This document shows, in pieces, positions 10,328 to 22,606 of a stretch of 24,386 nucleotides of DNA. A model generated the notes under the pieces. That model did not search any database. It was not told the origin of the DNA and worked only from the letters and a program-made list of their open reading frames with translations. The stretch comes from a virus. A program made the translations under genes and the position numbers. Every line of letters begins with the position of its first letter. Position 1 is the first letter of the stretch. The stretch is from the IMG/VR virus record IMGVR_UViG_3300037961_002207, positions 1-24,386 of that record. One strand, given 5' to 3'.

Positions 10328-10466
10328 AATCGGAATGAGTATGGTTGAAGGTCGAATGGCTGACCTTCAATCGTATCATAAACACGTCGGTGTCGCTGAA
10401 GGATTACAACAATCCATTGAGATTATCGATGAAACATTAAAAAAATTAAATGAAGAGGATGAATAA
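10269..10466 (+). CDS. Small coiled-coil-type phage protein, unknown
   Basis: This gene encodes 65 residues with an optimal ribosome-binding site. The sequence MTVTDLLQKIKANLKQRKTE ... MADLQSYHKHVGVAEGLQQS ... IEIIDETLKKLNEEDE is helical throughout with heptad-like spacing. A small helical hairpin or coiled coil is the natural guess. Small proteins of this look are often found next to capsid-assembly genes in phages, without a known function. The stop is one base before the start of the co-chaperonin gene, which suggests they are expressed together. Confidence 0.68.
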   Translation: MTVTDLLQKIKANLKQRKTEIGMSMVEGRMADLQSYHKHVGVAEGLQQSIEIIDETLKKLNEEDE

Positions 10467-10467
10467 C

Positions 10468-10866
10468 ATGTCTCATCAACATGAATATAAGGATGAAGAT
10501 ACAGAAGCCACGATAACTTCTGATCTTTTGCCAGTGCCTTTAAACTGGAAAGTTCTAATAAAACCTAATCAAGCAAAAACAAAAACAGAAGGTGGTTTAA
10601 TTTTAACTGCACAATCTAAAGACAATGAAGATTATTTGATTGCTTCTGGAAAAGTTGCTGCAATGGGTGATTTAGCTTATCGTGATCGTGACACAGGTAT
10701 TTCTTGGAAAACTAATGCTATTCCTAGAGTAGGAGACAGAGTTACATATGGAAAATATGCTGGTCAAAAAATAACAGTTAATGGTGTTAAGTTTTTATTG
10801 CTTAATGATGATGAAATCACATCTATTTTGCAAGAGGGAACTGATATCATGGCTTATGTAACGTAA
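10468..10866 (+). CDS. GroES-like co-chaperonin
   Basis: This gene encodes 132 residues from the ATG at 10468, which has GAGG nine bases upstream; an earlier in-frame ATG at 10459 lacks spacing. The protein shows the Cpn10 layout: VPLNWKVLIKPNQAKTKTEG and GLILTAQSK (the EGGLIL element corresponds to the GroES mobile loop that contacts GroEL), then IASGKVAAMG, VGDRVTYGKYAGQKITVNGV and FLLLNDDEITSIL. GroES proteins cap the GroEL cavity in the cytoplasm. Phage versions such as T4 gp31 help fold the capsid protein. No GroEL is present, so host GroEL is presumably used. Between the mobile loop and the VGD motif there is a longer segment than in the bacterial protein. The gene stands next to the scaffold and capsid genes. 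Confidence 0.88.
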   Translation: MSHQHEYKDEDTEATITSDLLPVPLNWKVLIKPNQAKTKTEGGLILTAQSKDNEDYLIASGKVAAMGDLAYRDRDTGISWKTNAIPRVGDRVTYGKYAGQKITVNGVKFLLLNDDEITSILQEGTDIMAYVT

Positions 10867-14331: not shown

Positions 14332-14745
14332 ATGGCTGATATTACATCTTCAACAAAGATATCAGAAAGCACTAATGAAGTTGTTTATGCTTTCCAATAT
14401 CAATATGTTGATACAGGAAATGAAAGTGCAGTTTCTAAAATAGATGTTTCTGCACTTGCTGCAAATGCAGATGGTAATGCTTGCACAGGCATTAGAATTG
14501 TAGAGTGTTGGTGGGTAATATCAGCTATGACAGTTGAAATATTAGCTGCAGCAGATACTGATGTTATTATTATGCATTTAACTGAAGGACAATCTGGTTA
14601 TCAAGATTTTTCTAAATTTGGTGGATTACCTAATAGCAAGTCTTTTGGCACTAATGGAACTGGTGATATTAAATTTACAACCACTGGTGCAGGTGCAACA
14701 GGAGATGCATATCAAATTGTAATTAGAGGGATTAAACAGTACTAA
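14332..14745 (+). CDS. Unknown probable virion protein
   Basis: This gene encodes 137 residues with AGGAGA before the ATG. The sequence is rich in Thr, Ala and Gly and looks like beta strands joined by short loops (VVYAFQYQYVDTGNESAVSK, TGIRIVECWWVISAMTVEIL, YQIVIRGIKQY). No known domain is recognised. Expressed between a decoration-type protein and a head-tail connector, and coupled to the latter by a TAATG overlap, it is probably part of the particle. A role in head decoration or head closure is only a guess. Confidence 0.62.
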   Translation: MADITSSTKISESTNEVVYAFQYQYVDTGNESAVSKIDVSALAANADGNACTGIRIVECWWVISAMTVEILAAADTDVIIMHLTEGQSGYQDFSKFGGLPNSKSFGTNGTGDIKFTTTGAGATGDAYQIVIRGIKQY

Positions 14746-15410
14746 TGGCAACTTCTGGAACAGTAGCATTTAGACCGAATATTGAAGAAATAATATCAGA
14801 GTCTTTTGAACGATGTGGCATTGATACTCAAACTAGGACTGGGTATTTTGCAAAATCTGCAAGAAGGAGTTTAAATCTACTGTTTTCAGAATGGGCAAAT
14901 AGAGGAATCAATTATTGGGCAGTTAGCAACAACACACTATCTTTAACAAGTGGAACATCTAATTATGCATTACCTCCAGGAACAATAGATATTATAGATG
15001 CTGTAATTAGAGAAAATGATACAGATCAAATGATTAATAGAGTTTCCATAGCAGAATATAATCAAATTCCTAATAAAACGGAAACAGGAAAACCAAATCA
15101 ATATATGATCGATAGGCAATACACTCCGCAAATTTATTTTTGGCAAGTTCCAGACGCTTCATACAGCATGGTTTATTGGGCAGTAAATCAACTTGATGAT
15201 GTGACTTTATCTAATCAAGATGCAGATGTTCCTTATCGTTGGACAGATTGTATTTGTGCAGGATTGGCTGCGAAATTATCTTTAAAATATGCTTCTGATA
15301 GATATCAACTTTTAAATGACGTTTATGAAAAATCTTTTAGTTTTGCTTCTTCAGCAGATAATGATGGTGTTAATTTGAGGGTTCAACCGACAGCGTTGAA
15401 TTTAATTTAA
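14745..15410 (+). CDS. Head-tail connector, P22 gp4-like (tail accessory factor)
   Basis: This gene encodes 221 residues and starts at a TAATG overlap. The N-terminal part (IEEIISESFERCGIDTQTRT, then ARRSLNLLFSEWANRGINYW) has the helical EWANRGINxW pattern found in P22 gp4-type connector proteins. They bind below the portal and close the head. It is followed by LPPGTIDIIDAVI and a region with PQIYFWQVPD and YSMVYWAVNQLDD, then a C-terminal helix pair (AGLAAKLSLKYASDRYQLLN). The P22-type portal upstream fits this call. The family name is from memory; an alternative is another adaptor family of the same place. Confidence 0.76.
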   Translation: MATSGTVAFRPNIEEIISESFERCGIDTQTRTGYFAKSARRSLNLLFSEWANRGINYWAVSNNTLSLTSGTSNYALPPGTIDIIDAVIRENDTDQMINRVSIAEYNQIPNKTETGKPNQYMIDRQYTPQIYFWQVPDASYSMVYWAVNQLDDVTLSNQDADVPYRWTDCICAGLAAKLSLKYASDRYQLLNDVYEKSFSFASSADNDGVNLRVQPTALNLI

Positions 15411-16084
15411 TGGCTAGAAATGCAAAAGGTAAAAAATCTTATGCAATAAGCGATAGAAGTGGTTTTAAAGTTAGATACACTCAACTTAAAACTACATGGG
15501 ATAATTTACGTGTCGAGCCTGAAGAGTTCGAACCAAAGCATCCACAATTAACTCCTGCTAAAAATATAATAGATGCAACTAGTTTATTTAATCCAAGACC
15601 AGATAACGATCCTGAAAATTCAACTATTTTCATAAAATATAATTATGATTGGTCTGTAGATCCAAAGACTATAAATAAATCTCCAAGCTGTATAGGTGGT
15701 GTAGGAAAAGCTTACATAATAAAATTTGAGGGAAATGGTGGTACAGGTGGCGTAGGAAATTCAACTTTATTTCTTACTGAAAATGCTACAAGCACTGGTG
15801 GCACAGGTGCTGTAGGAAATGCAACTCCATTTCCTGCTCCAAGTGGTGTATCTGGTACAGGTGGTTTAGGTTCAATTGGAATTTCTATGACTAAAACTGG
15901 TCAGACAAGTTCTGGTGGTACAGGTGCTGTAGGAAATCATGGACAATCGAATGATGAAGAGATACATTTAAGTATTAATGAAACTGGATTAGGTGGCACT
16001 GGTGGTGTAGGTTCAGGTTATGAAGTGCAAACTGATTTCGGTTGGGGTCATGCAGGTTGGGATACAGGAAGTTGGGGTAAATAA
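15410..16084 (+). CDS. Structural protein with glycine-rich 20-residue repeats
   Basis: This gene encodes 224 residues and starts at a TAATG overlap. The N-terminal 70 residues (MARNAKGKKSYAISDRSGFK, VRYTQLKTTWDNLRVEPEEF, PKHPQLTPAKNIIDATSLFN-PRPDN) are of a type I recall from marine phage virion proteins near the connector. From about 108 to 202 there are five copies of a GGTGxVGN motif, mostly 20 residues apart, with short strand-like segments between. The C-terminus is Trp/Gly-rich (DFGWGHAGWDTGSWGK). Glycine-rich repeats of this kind occur in phage tip or fibre proteins, where they can pack as polyglycine II helices. The function is not proven; a connector-associated or tail role fits the position. 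Confidence 0.7.
   Translation: MARNAKGKKSYAISDRSGFKVRYTQLKTTWDNLRVEPEEFEPKHPQLTPAKNIIDATSLFNPRPDNDPENSTIFIKYNYDWSVDPKTINKSPSCIGGVGKAYIIKFEGNGGTGGVGNSTLFLTENATSTGGTGAVGNATPFPAPSGVSGTGGLGSIGISMTKTGQTSSGGTGAVGNHGQSNDEEIHLSINETGLGGTGGVGSGYEVQTDFGWGHAGWDTGSWGK
15731..16015 (+). repeat. Coding glycine-rich repeat, five GGTGxVG units
   Basis: Within the gene at 15410-16084, units start near residues 108, 128, 148, 168 and 194. The first four have an exact period of 20 residues (60 bases). At DNA level, copies such as GGTGGCACAGGTGCTGTAGG recur with only third-base changes. Confidence 0.75.
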
Positions 16085-18044: not shown

Positions 18045-19568
18045 ATGGGTACTCGTAATAAAGGTGGATTAGTCGGTGGATTCGACCAATTAAGAGCACC
18101 TGATGCACCTACAATAACTTCTACTTCAGCAGGGGATGCAAGTTTACAAATTGCTTTTACAGCACCAAGTAATGTTGGTGGTGGAACAATTACAGGTTAT
18201 ATTGCTTTTGCAACAAATGTACCACAAGAACCAGTTTTATACACAGTTACAGTTCAAGATGTTAGTGGTAACAAATATTTTATAGATTCATCTCAACAAG
18301 CAACTTTAACTTTAGTTAAAGGTCATACTTATACATTTGATTGGTCAGCTGCTACCTCTCATCCTTTAAGACTTTCTACCACTTCTGATGGTACACATAA
18401 TAGTGGTAGTGAATATACAACTGGTGTTGTCAAAGATGATAGTGCTTACACTACAAAAATTACTGTAGATGCAGGAGCACCTTCTACTTTATATTATTAT
18501 TGTCAAAATCATTCTGGCATGGGTGGAAGTGCAAATGTTCAAGCTTATGTACATTCTTCTGCAACTGGCACTTCTAGTCCTATAACTGTTGGATCTTTAT
18601 CTAATGATATTAGTGCAACTAGTTATTTAGCTGCACAGAATGTATTTGGTGTTAGTCCAAATGCTGTAGGATCTTCTGGCACACCTACAGGTTCATTAGC
18701 TATGTTTTTTGGTGGTTATAGTACAGCTAGTTCTGCAAATGTAAATCATATTCAACAATTAGATATGACTTCTTCAAGTAACGCTACAGATTTTGGAGAT
18801 ATAGCATCAGCTAGAAGCTATAAATCTGCTGTTGGCACACCTACTAGATGTGTAGCAGGTGGTTTTGATAGTACTTCAGGGGAAGTACAATTAGAATATG
18901 TAAATCCAGCTTCAGCAGGTAATTCTCAAGATTTTGGATTGTTATCTCTAGCTAATAACAATGCAGGTGCATTTGGTAACTCAACTTATGGAGTTTTTGC
19001 TCCAAATAACAATGGAGCAAAACGTGATTTTATGCGTATAACTATTGCATCTGGAGGAAATTCTAGTGATGTAGGTGATTTAAATTTAGAAATATATAAT
19101 TTTGGTGGTGGTATTAGTAATGGTACAATTGGTTTAGTTTTTGGTGGGTATGATAGTCAAGCAGGTGGTGTTACAAATGCAATCTCACAAAAAAATATAA
19201 CTTCAAGTGGTATATCCACTGATTTTGGTAATTTGACACAAGCTAGACAAATGTTACAAGGTTCTTCTAATTCAACTAGAGGTGTTATGGGTGGTGGTGG
19301 TTCTACGGATATTATTGATTATGTCACCATAGCTAGTGCAGGAAACGCCACCGATTTTGGAAATTTGACTGCTGTTAGAGAAAGAGTTGCTAGTGCAGCA
19401 AGCTCTACTAAAGCTGTTTTTGCAGGTGGACAAGAATCTTCTGCATCTGTAGATAAAATAGATGTTATAACTATAGCAGCGACTTCAAACGCTACTGATT
19501 TTGGTGATTTAATAGCTGCATTGGATGGTGTTGCAGGAACTGGTACTAGACATGGGGGTATTTCATAA
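18045..19568 (+). CDS. Fibre protein: FN3 split by a cupredoxin-like domain, then kelch-like repeats
   Basis: This gene encodes 507 residues with AGAGGAT before the ATG. Residues 18-57 look like the first half of a fibronectin III domain (APDAPTITSTSAGDASLQIA, FTAPSNVGGGTITGY) and 170-214 like the second half (TGTSSPITVGSLSNDISATS, AQNVFGVSP). Between them (about 58-168) is a cupredoxin-like domain: VLYTVTVQDVSGNKYFID, GHTYTFDW, SHPLRL (His106) and YYYCQNHSGMGG (Cys153, His156, Met159). That is a candidate type 1 copper ligand set. Residues 215-507 hold six kelch-like repeats of about 47 residues built on NATDFGxL. The domain calls come from reading the sequence. An appendage that contacts the host or environment is the likely role. 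Confidence 0.75.
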   Translation: MGTRNKGGLVGGFDQLRAPDAPTITSTSAGDASLQIAFTAPSNVGGGTITGYIAFATNVPQEPVLYTVTVQDVSGNKYFIDSSQQATLTLVKGHTYTFDWSAATSHPLRLSTTSDGTHNSGSEYTTGVVKDDSAYTTKITVDAGAPSTLYYYCQNHSGMGGSANVQAYVHSSATGTSSPITVGSLSNDISATSYLAAQNVFGVSPNAVGSSGTPTGSLAMFFGGYSTASSANVNHIQQLDMTSSSNATDFGDIASARSYKSAVGTPTRCVAGGFDSTSGEVQLEYVNPASAGNSQDFGLLSLANNNAGAFGNSTYGVFAPNNNGAKRDFMRITIASGGNSSDVGDLNLEIYNFGGGISNGTIGLVFGGYDSQAGGVTNAISQKNITSSGISTDFGNLTQARQMLQGSSNSTRGVMGGGGSTDIIDYVTIASAGNATDFGNLTAVRERVASAASSTKAVFAGGQESSASVDKIDVITIAATSNATDFGDLIAALDGVAGTGTRHGGIS

Positions 19569-20539
19569 TGCCTAATTACTCTGGGGTGTGGGATTTAAGA
19601 CAACAAGGTGTGGCTGTTAAAGGTGATAGATGGGAATCAGCACCTGAAAATGTTTTTATTTCTGGTGTTACAAGTAGAAGAGCAAATGAAAAAATTAATT
19701 TGTTGTCAAGTGGTGGAGCAACAGATTTTGGAGAAATAAGATCTGGAGCAGGTCAAGCAGATGGAGATTTTTCAGCTAGGGCAGGTTTTGGTAATGGAGT
19801 AAGAGGTATTTATACTGCTATTGCCAATAATTATGGTGGAACGACTGATATAGAATATTTTACATTTGCATCAACAGGTGCTTCTCAAGACTTTGGAAAT
19901 TTAACAGTTGCAAATTCTGTTGGATCTGGATTAAGTAATAATACTAGGGGAGTTATAACCAGTCATAATTCTACTGATACTATGGATTACATCACTATAA
20001 ATTCACTAGGGGATGCAACAGATTTTGGAAATTTAGCTACAGCTTCTGCTTATGGTGCAGCTTGTTCTTCTACAACTAGAGGTCTTATCGCAATAGGTTA
20101 TAATGGTAGCACTTATAATAATGATACTGTTAATTATATTACTATAGCATCAGAAGCAAACGCTACTGATTTTGGAAATTTAAGTCAAGCTAGAAGTTTT
20201 TTAGCTTCTTCATCTAGCACTACCAGAGGTGTATTTGGAGGTGGTAATGATGGTGGCACTTCTTATAACATAATCGATTATTTTACAATAGCATCAGAAT
20301 CAAACGCTACTGATTTTGGAGATTTAACTATAACAAATAGAGTTAATGCTTCAGGCTCTGGTTCGACTAAAGCTATTTTTGCAAGTTCTAATGCAGGTAC
20401 ATCTGATGCTGAAAGAAGTTTTATAAATAGAATAACTATAGCAACAACTGCAAATGCTAGTGATTTTGGAAATTTAAGTTATAAAAATGCAGTTTTAAGA
20501 ACAGCAGCAGGTGATTCTACACCATCACAAAAAGGATAA
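19568..20539 (+). CDS. Six-repeat kelch-like fibre protein, paralogue of the upstream gene
   Basis: This gene encodes 323 residues and starts at a TAATG overlap. It has no FN3 or cupredoxin part. It starts MPNYSGVWDLRQQGVAVKGD, RWESAPENVF and then has six repeats of 44-55 residues, each containing NATDFGNL or a variant (Asp-Phe-Gly at about 53, 108, 152, 201, 249 and 299) and ending near TTRGVFGGG-type strands. This is the same unit as in the C-terminal half of the preceding gene, so the two arose by duplication. Kelch-type repeats form beta propellers, and six repeats would fit one six-bladed propeller; this is inference. A surface-binding appendage is likely. Confidence 0.75.
   Translation: MPNYSGVWDLRQQGVAVKGDRWESAPENVFISGVTSRRANEKINLLSSGGATDFGEIRSGAGQADGDFSARAGFGNGVRGIYTAIANNYGGTTDIEYFTFASTGASQDFGNLTVANSVGSGLSNNTRGVITSHNSTDTMDYITINSLGDATDFGNLATASAYGAACSSTTRGLIAIGYNGSTYNNDTVNYITIASEANATDFGNLSQARSFLASSSSTTRGVFGGGNDGGTSYNIIDYFTIASESNATDFGDLTITNRVNASGSGSTKAIFASSNAGTSDAERSFINRITIATTANASDFGNLSYKNAVLRTAAGDSTPSQKG
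20144..20320 (+). repeat. Pair of 33-base direct repeats in kelch-like repeats
   Basis: The 33-base segments 20144-20176 and 20288-20320 differ at one base (G versus T at the twelfth-thirteenth position). They encode IASE-NATDFG in neighbouring repeats, 144 bases apart. Shorter matches (ACGCTACTGATTTTGG) recur at 19489 in the preceding gene. Confidence 0.72.
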
Positions 20540-20542
20540 ATT

Positions 20543-22606
20543 ATGACAAGATATTTAGGTGGATTAATTACAGCAGACGAAACACAATCACTTCCTTCTA
20601 ATAACTTTGAAGATACATCAGCTCCAGGAATATGGACATTAAGTGAAGCTGAAATGTTAAATAAACAAGGTCTTTGGCCAACAGCAGGAGTTGCGAATCC
20701 TTCAACACAAATAGAAAATATATTTAGTACTGATACTTTTTTTGATTCAAATAACGCAGCTGATGATGCAGGTAGAACGATTACTAATGGAATTAATTTG
20801 TCAGGAGAAGGTGGATTAGTATGGGTAAAAAGCAGAACTTCTGCACAAGATCATTCTTTAACTGATACTGTAAGAGGTGCATCTGTAAGGTTAAGCACAA
20901 ATACTACAGGTGCAAATGCAACAGGATCAAAATATGACAGAGTTGATCAATTTAATAGTAATGGTTTTAGATATCCAAATGGATTTGCAGCAGCTCAAGA
21001 TTACGTTGCTTGGACATTTAGAAAAGCACCAAACTTTTTTGATATTGTAAGTTGGTCTGGAAATGCAACAGCAGGTAGACAAATTAGTCATTCTTTAGGT
21101 TCTTTACCTGGAATGATAATAGTAAAAAATTTAACTGTTGCAGGAAATGGTTGGTATATTTATCACAGATCAACAGGAAAAGCTAAATATTTACTTTTTA
21201 CTACTGATGGTGAATTAAGTTCAACAACTGAATGGAACAATACTGATCCAACAACTACACATTTTACAGTTGGTAGTGGTGGTGGAGTTAATGGAAATGG
21301 ATCAAATTATGTAGCCTATCTTTTTGGACATGACACTTCATCTGATGGGATGATACAATGTGGCACTTATAGTGGTAATGGTTCTACTACTGGTCCAACA
21401 GTTAATTTGGGATTTGAACCACAATGGGTTATGGTGAAACAGACTAATGCTATTGGTCAATGGTGGAATATAATTGATTTTATTCGTGGGTTTACTACTT
21501 TTAGTGGTTCACAGACACTAGGAGCAAACGATGATGATGCTGAGTATGTAAATGCTAATCTTGGTTCTAGTACACCTATATTATCGCCAACACCTACAGG
21601 ATTTCAGGTAAGAAGTGCTCAGGCAGCTACAAATCAAGGTGGTGGTGGAACTTATATTTATGTAGCTATTCGCAGAGCACCAATGGCAACACAAACTGTT
21701 GCTTCAAATGTTTTTGAAGTATCAAGTTCTGGATCAAGCTCTCCACCACCAAGATTTAATGCTAGTTTCCCAGTTGGCATGGCATTACACAAAATAATAG
21801 ATCAAACAACTAATTGGAATTTATTTGCTAGAGAATTTGCAACTGATATGTTAGAAGTTGACACTACAAATTCTTTAAATACATCTTATCCAAATGATAC
21901 ATTTGATTTTACTAATGGATATAATGATCAAACAACAGTTGATGTAGATGACATTTCATGGATGTGGAGAAAAGCAAAAGGTTATTTTGACGTAAGAGTT
22001 TATGATGGCACAGGAAGTGTTACAACTCATGCTCACAATTTAGGTGTAGTTCCAGATATGATTTGGTTTAAATTACTTGATTCTACAGGTGGATTTACAA
22101 GAGGTTGGGTTGTAACTTCACTTCATTTACCGAATGCAACTGCAACAAATGACACAACACTTTATTTAAATACAAATGCAGCTGAAGTTGATGAAGCAAT
22201 TATGAACGATACTGGTCCTACATCAAGTGTATTTTCTGTAAGTGCAGATGCTCATGTCAATAATAGCACTAGCAGATATGTAGCTTTCCTATTTGCAAAT
22301 CTGGATGGAGTAAGTAAAATTGGTACTGTTTCTCATACAAATGGGTCAGCAACTGCTGTTGATTGTGGATTTACAACTGGTACACAATTTTTATTATTAA
22401 AAAGAACTGATTCGGTAGGAGATTGGGAAATTTTTGATCCAGAATCAAATTTATTAAATGGTAATTATAAACAGGTATTAAATTCAACTGCAGCTCAAAC
22501 TACACAAAATACTATTGATACAGGTGGTTCATCTCCTGCTAATGGATTTCAAATTGCTAGTGGAGCTACAACAGGAACATATTTTTATTATGCAATAGCA
22601 ATATAG
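20543..22606 (+). CDS. Large modular fibre protein with six related modules
   Basis: This gene encodes 687 residues, with AAGGA before the ATG. The N-terminal 60 residues (MTRYLGGLITADETQSLPSN, then GIWTLSEAEMLNKQGLWPTA) look like an attachment region. After that come six modules of about 100 residues, each ending in a VAW-type segment: VAWTFRKAP (155), VAYLFGHD (257), YVAIRRAP (373), ISWMWRKAKG (471), VAFLFANLD (580) and YYAIAI (681). Modules 1-3 and 4-6 look like an internal duplication. Each begins with a pattern such as PGMIIVKN or PDMIWFKLLD. I recall such modules in marine phage tail fibres (DUF7483-like; unverified). Surface binding is the likely role. Confidence 0.74.
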   Translation: MTRYLGGLITADETQSLPSNNFEDTSAPGIWTLSEAEMLNKQGLWPTAGVANPSTQIENIFSTDTFFDSNNAADDAGRTITNGINLSGEGGLVWVKSRTSAQDHSLTDTVRGASVRLSTNTTGANATGSKYDRVDQFNSNGFRYPNGFAAAQDYVAWTFRKAPNFFDIVSWSGNATAGRQISHSLGSLPGMIIVKNLTVAGNGWYIYHRSTGKAKYLLFTTDGELSSTTEWNNTDPTTTHFTVGSGGGVNGNGSNYVAYLFGHDTSSDGMIQCGTYSGNGSTTGPTVNLGFEPQWVMVKQTNAIGQWWNIIDFIRGFTTFSGSQTLGANDDDAEYVNANLGSSTPILSPTPTGFQVRSAQAATNQGGGGTYIYVAIRRAPMATQTVASNVFEVSSSGSSSPPPRFNASFPVGMALHKIIDQTTNWNLFAREFATDMLEVDTTNSLNTSYPNDTFDFTNGYNDQTTVDVDDISWMWRKAKGYFDVRVYDGTGSVTTHAHNLGVVPDMIWFKLLDSTGGFTRGWVVTSLHLPNATATNDTTLYLNTNAAEVDEAIMNDTGPTSSVFSVSADAHVNNSTSRYVAFLFANLDGVSKIGTVSHTNGSATAVDCGFTTGTQFLLLKRTDSVGDWEIFDPESNLLNGNYKQVLNSTAAQTTQNTIDTGGSSPANGFQIASGATTGTYFYYAIAI

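Follow-up and report, generated by a model that had tools for sequence, protein, structure and literature searches.

The window, i.e., the complete stretch of 24,386 nucleotides of viral DNA that was analyzed here, encodes a tail-fiber/adhesin-type protein in which an FN3-like domain is split by a cupredoxin domain and followed by six repeats of ~47 residues, each with (T/Q/S)D(F/V)G at its end (Table 1). A sequence-only reading of this DNA had already called the product a phage fiber protein; this designation is deduced from gene position and domain make-up. It contains 2 cysteines, one of which lies inside the cupredoxin domain (Cys153), and on reading the 507 residues no HxH motif of the kind found in iron-binding tail fibers was encountered. 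The repeats, which here occupy positions 18777-19568, also occur, again six in number, in the protein encoded at 19568-20539. Both arrays are probably beta-propeller-like, and no Pfam family was assigned to the repeats in either of them. Directly downstream, a tail-fiber-type protein (20543-22606) contains DUF7483 (E 3e-77). Furthermore, a GroES-like co-chaperonin (Cpn10, E 5e-14) is encoded at 10450-10866, as is also the case in Roseobacter phage CRP-902 which, together with CRP-901, is the nearest phage by terminase (about 80%).

Table 1. Positions in the window of the cupredoxin domain, its predicted copper ligands, and the genes and domains discussed together with it.
Feature	Position	Strand	Basis or remark
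SU10-type adaptor	14745..15410	+	Pfam SU10_adaptor 5e-12; homologues in three related phage contigs have the module at the N-terminus
Protein without cupredoxin in the window	15410..16084	+	59 homologous ORFs in related loci carry the module, mostly C-terminally
Tail-fiber/adhesin-type protein, 507 aa	18045..19568	+	Interrupted FN3-like domain and cupredoxin, then repeats
FN3-like domain, N-terminal half, residues 17-56	18093..18212	+	Joined halves match L441
Cupredoxin domain, residues 58-168	18216..18548	+	AlphaFold2 model, PDB and viral fold matches
His106, predicted copper ligand 1 (CAT)	18360..18362	+	Invariant column; pairs with the copper His of plastocyanin
Cys153, predicted copper ligand 2 (TGT)	18501..18503	+	Invariant column; sole Cys of the domain
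His156, predicted copper ligand 3 (CAT)	18510..18512	+	Invariant column
Met159, predicted axial copper ligand (ATG)	18519..18521	+	Invariant column; one Leu variant in L118
FN3-like domain, C-terminal half, residues 167-215	18543..18689	+	Joined halves match L441

The structure of residues 54-174 was predicted with AlphaFold2 from an input alignment of 33 relatives from viral contigs, yielding a beta-rich model with a pLDDT of 93.4 and a pTM of 0.84. In a Foldseek search against the PDB, the top match was a three-domain copper nitrite reductase (best E 9.8e-05, TM about 0.5), and further matches comprised a multicopper oxidase, rusticyanin, pseudoazurin, plastocyanin, amicyanin, and AcoP. VIA-align likewise placed a nitrite reductase first (2dv6 residues 24-137, Z 9.8, rmsd 2.7, 97 aligned residues), followed by rusticyanin (Z 8.4); small two-domain laccases and a domain of coagulation factor VIII come next. 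Within a viral structure library, 61 fold matches at E <= 0.001 were obtained, chiefly to cyanophage structural proteins; in the same library, the model also matches small proteins named "beta-sandwich" that bear the labels Pithovirus LCPAC and Marseillevirus LCMAC. Both the model and its fold matches correspond to a Greek-key beta-sandwich of the cupredoxin type, and it is nearly certain that residues 58-168 adopt this fold. The strand-rich, cupredoxin-like domain proposed in the sequence-only reading is thereby borne out, with rusticyanin and plastocyanin, to which it had looked for comparison, among the structural matches.

At the level of sequence families, the domain stays below the cut-offs of established copper proteins, scoring 17.8 bits with Pfam PF00127 (Copper-bind; cut-off 21.2), for which its relatives are below the cut-off as well, and 13.9 bits with the plastocyanin equivalog TIGR02656 (cut-off 87.85). 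A profile built from 17 diverse relatives (A1) retrieved plastocyanin first (E 0.0011), followed by nitrite reductase, rusticyanin, pseudoazurin, and amicyanin, and in the profile alignment the four ligands of the domain pair with those of plastocyanin. The narrower profile A2 (33 sequences) matched no PDB chain at E <= 0.1, and the sequence link to plastocyanin therefore comes from the more diverse A1. CBM_4_9 was rejected as the family of the domain, as its 17.8 bits are less than the 25.9 required and cover 47 residues, while the fold search leads to cupredoxins; among the relatives, 1 of 17 matched CBM_4_9 at E <= 0.01. The short Cys-x2-His-x2-Met spacing had given rise to doubt over copper binding, which can be set aside, since a copper nitrite reductase of solved structure has the same spacing in its C-terminal part (FDYICTLHPWMKGTI), as does amicyanin (Cys92, His95, and Met98). 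Counting against a copper site, the first ligand His is followed by Pro in the phage domain, where Asn is usual.

In the model, His106 immediately precedes a strand, Cys153 closes the penultimate strand, and His156 and Met159 belong to the loop that leads into the final strand, which reproduces the type 1 order of His, Cys, His, and Met with the last three at this loop. Judging from this topology, the four residues would meet at one site. The invariant columns of A1 are T, F, H, Y, C, H, and M, and those of A2 are F, H, C, H, and M, so that the ligands make up four of the five; if columns were drawn at random, the chance that all four fall within five invariant columns of 108 is about 1e-6. 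Moreover, in relatives with identities as low as about 24%, the ligand columns, including the loop His and Met, are better conserved than almost every core position. To avoid circularity, the ligand columns were masked in the profile and all fetched ORFs were searched. This revealed a complete H-C-H-M set in 337 of the 340 distinct domains whose alignment spans all four positions, a count that leaves out 42 hits ending before the Cys-His-Met loop (many of them copies with long insertions in T4-like cyanophage structural proteins) and that leans to retention, as some loci were fetched by patterns containing the Cys-His loop, a bias that the masked profile and second copies reduce without removing it. 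The three exceptions have Leu for the axial Met (L118), the Met one residue later (L089), or have lost all four ligands together (L491).

Among the early-ending hits, the copies of P-HM2 (L519) and S-RIM2 (L520) lack both the first His and the Cys-His-Met loop. The full ligand set is absent as well from the copy of S-H9-2 (L093), which was read in two pieces, and one S-RIM2 protein (L091) contains a third copy, which has kept the His and lacks the loop. The ligand-free domain of L491 (3925-5007) is found at the N-terminus of an SU10-type adaptor and represents a natural scaffold-only version. The losses are thus mostly all-or-none, as expected for one shared site. In the cellular relatives examined, all four ligands are kept throughout. 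The sequence-only reading had pointed to an apparently complete ligand set; this agrees with what is found across the homologues, in which ligand loss is rare.

The regions flanking the cupredoxin, when joined without it, align as one stretch to a homologue in locus L441 (49% over 81 columns, E 3e-14), which places the domain inside the FN3-like domain. Since the FN3 part of an AlphaFold2 model of residues 1-229 has low confidence (pLDDT 30-50), this insertion is read from the uninterrupted relative. The capsid protein of L441 is 89% identical to that of the window phage; there, the cupredoxin is found instead on a homologue of the window gene at 15410. Other carriers among the relatives are homologues of the gene at 14332 and proteins related to that at 20543. 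CRP-902 gave no match to the cupredoxin domain, and eleven relatives by capsid, each with 5 kb or more of downstream sequence, show no copy of it; with several near relatives lacking it, the module is dispensable. The same module is therefore present on different virion proteins and missing in close relatives, as is characteristic of exchangeable virion decorations. This shows that it moves between virion genes and that its carrier protein in the tail region differs among relatives.

The domain is widespread in marine phages. A tblastn search of a phage collection identified 260 records carrying it, with Synechococcus, Cyanophage, Prochlorococcus, Pelagibacter, Marine, uncultured, or plain phage names, and scans of viral contigs with single queries yielded 151 to 453 relatives per query. 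Isolates that carry the domain include S-TIM5, HTVC028P, S-ShM2, and P-HM2. In phages of Synechococcus, Prochlorococcus, and Pelagibacter, the relatives are located in structural proteins, nearly all with the ligands, and the record annotations of the module proteins examined read hypothetical, tail fiber, or structural protein. Two candidate sources of the domain were discarded: a plasmid-borne copper resistance protein, as the plasmid search gave no match to the domain, and the viral nirK nitrite reductase, which is a full enzyme gene (PMC8115048) and differs from the phage domain.

A genome collection contributed 21 cellular relatives, chiefly from Marine Group II archaea and also from SAR86, Photobacterium, and others. 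Profile searches detected the domain in one archaeal family (15 of 79 genomes) and in the SAR86 order (38 of 81 genomes), numbers that count as presences only, with absences carrying no weight. The Marine Group II proteins (L097, L099, L104, L106, and L534) combine a lipobox signal, collagen-like Gly-x-x repeats, and a terminal cupredoxin, and the SAR86 carriers comprise short lipoproteins as well as longer exported proteins. The tree computed from viral and cellular copies has little resolution and gives no direction of transfer; within it, the cell copies fall among the phage copies with about four changes. It should be noted that locus L095, on a contig binned as Maricaulis sp., holds capsid and tail genes of the window's phage group and is thus probably a misbinned phage contig. 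Likewise, the zero branch length between the copies of the domain in L100 (Acidiferrobacter) and L102 (Euryarchaeota) suggests misbinning.

With the ligand order, the model, and the conservation described above, it is quite likely that residues 58-168 carry a true type 1 copper site, predicted to be displayed on the virion. We further consider it probable, with less assurance, that the domain is an exchangeable tail-region module of a marine phage akin to the Roseobacter phages CRP-901 and CRP-902, and that it depends on an intact type 1 copper site to do its job. The apo domain would fold in the host cytoplasm during assembly; because virions assemble in this copper-poor compartment, copper would be loaded after lysis, from seawater or at the cell envelope. 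The copper-filled site would then be required for the job of the module, the likeliest of which would be contact with the host or a particle surface. By analogy to the Ig-like, FN3, and BACON domains that are shuffled among virion proteins, a role in surface contact appears most likely. The cellular copies, in which lipobox, collagen-like stalk, and terminal cupredoxin occur together (Marine Group II) or which are short lipoproteins (SAR86), were counted as support for the copper module. Against it count that phage proteins are synthesized in the cytoplasm, which holds little free copper, and that relatives can dispense with the module. A broader version, in which working type 1 centers on the particles of several unrelated marine phage groups would take up copper outside the cell and use it for docking to the host surface or for electron exchange with it, with the same module on the stalks of SAR86 and Marine Group II, is in our view unlikely.

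Several other explanations have to be weighed against a copper site that is required for surface contact. Copper may simply make the domain stiffer and give the tail protein protection in seawater, without any surface or redox role. Type 1 copper stabilizes cupredoxins, and the presence of the module on several different virion proteins fits such a function as well; yet this would leave unexplained why the module moves while module-free relatives persist and why it is used on cellular lipoprotein stalks, and we regard stabilization as the sole function as somewhat unlikely. Going further, the robust fold could serve as a scaffold that holds no copper in life, the four residues being kept for folding or through recent common descent. 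The persistence of copies without the four residues (L491, L519, and L520) and the travelling of the domain among virion proteins in the manner of a generic decoration would agree with this. However, the ligands outlast nearly all core positions at such low identity, even in the loop, losses are concerted instead of scattered, and the cellular lipoprotein copies retain the full set, all of which makes a bare scaffold quite unlikely.

Two more specific uses of the metal can be envisaged. The module might offer copper as bait to a receptor for copper uptake or handling in the outer membrane, i.e., a copper version of the proposed iron "Trojan horse" of phage tails. Iron on HxH motifs of tail fibers has been proposed as an attachment aid of marine phages (PMC11705849), and all 260 phage records are named as marine cyanobacterial, Pelagibacter, marine, uncultured, or unnamed phages; however, the fusion of the module to an adaptor near the head-tail joint, a poor spot for receptor binding, renders this very unlikely. 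Alternatively, the site could act in electron transfer between the particle and either the host surface or reactive oxygen species, for sensing, as a trigger, or for protection. While its ligand set is that of electron-transfer cupredoxins, it has no known partner and no known second copper center, and a redox role is highly improbable. Contact with a surface through a copper-filled module is the reading that we prefer.

If a complete, conserved copper site on virions proves true, copper would be a working part of some of the commonest viruses in the ocean, the idea of metal on phage tails would be widened from iron to copper, and phage tails would be connected with a surface-protein family of marine microbes that are abundant and for the most part uncultured. 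The spread of the domain on marine viruses and on microbial surface proteins hints that virus particles use copper in a way that has been overlooked. A literature search, from which subscription journals were largely absent, found no paper that pairs a cupredoxin with phage tails or a tail fiber, which in itself does not prove novelty. Within the same scope, nothing linked a blue copper or plastocyanin domain with cyanophage, and nothing relevant was obtained for cupredoxin combined with cyanophage or bacteriophage. The nearest published idea is that of iron on tail fibers (PMC11705849). The insertion into an FN3-like domain, the movement between virion proteins, and the wide spread in marine phages and microbes go beyond the sequence-only reading.

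Compared to known systems, the phage domain shares its fold, the ligand order, and the Cys-His-Met of the last loop with type 1 cupredoxins such as plastocyanin, rusticyanin, pseudoazurin, amicyanin, and the N-terminal domain of the Hyphomicrobium nitrite reductase, and with amicyanin also the C-x2-H-x2-M spacing. It differs from them in its location in a tail protein, in the Pro that takes the place of Asn behind the first His, in scoring under the Pfam cut-off, and in that no electron partner is known for it. Ig-like, FN3, and BACON domains are likewise small beta-sandwich modules that are found on several virion proteins and are variably present among close relatives; however, they are without a conserved metal site, whereas the phage cupredoxin keeps a complete ligand set. 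In the HxH iron-binding tail fibers of T4 (gp37) and alterophage R22Y, iron is held between His pairs of the fiber trimer (PMC11705849). Common to these fibers and the phage cupredoxin is a metal, predicted or shown, on a tail fiber, which in the latter would be one predicted copper site in a single folded domain. Finally, the lipoproteins of SAR86 and Marine Group II, whose copies in the latter are about 45-53% identical to the phage domain, have the same four ligands and are exported and likely displayed; unlike the phage copy, they are cellular and lipid-anchored, with the archaeal ones held on a collagen-like stalk.
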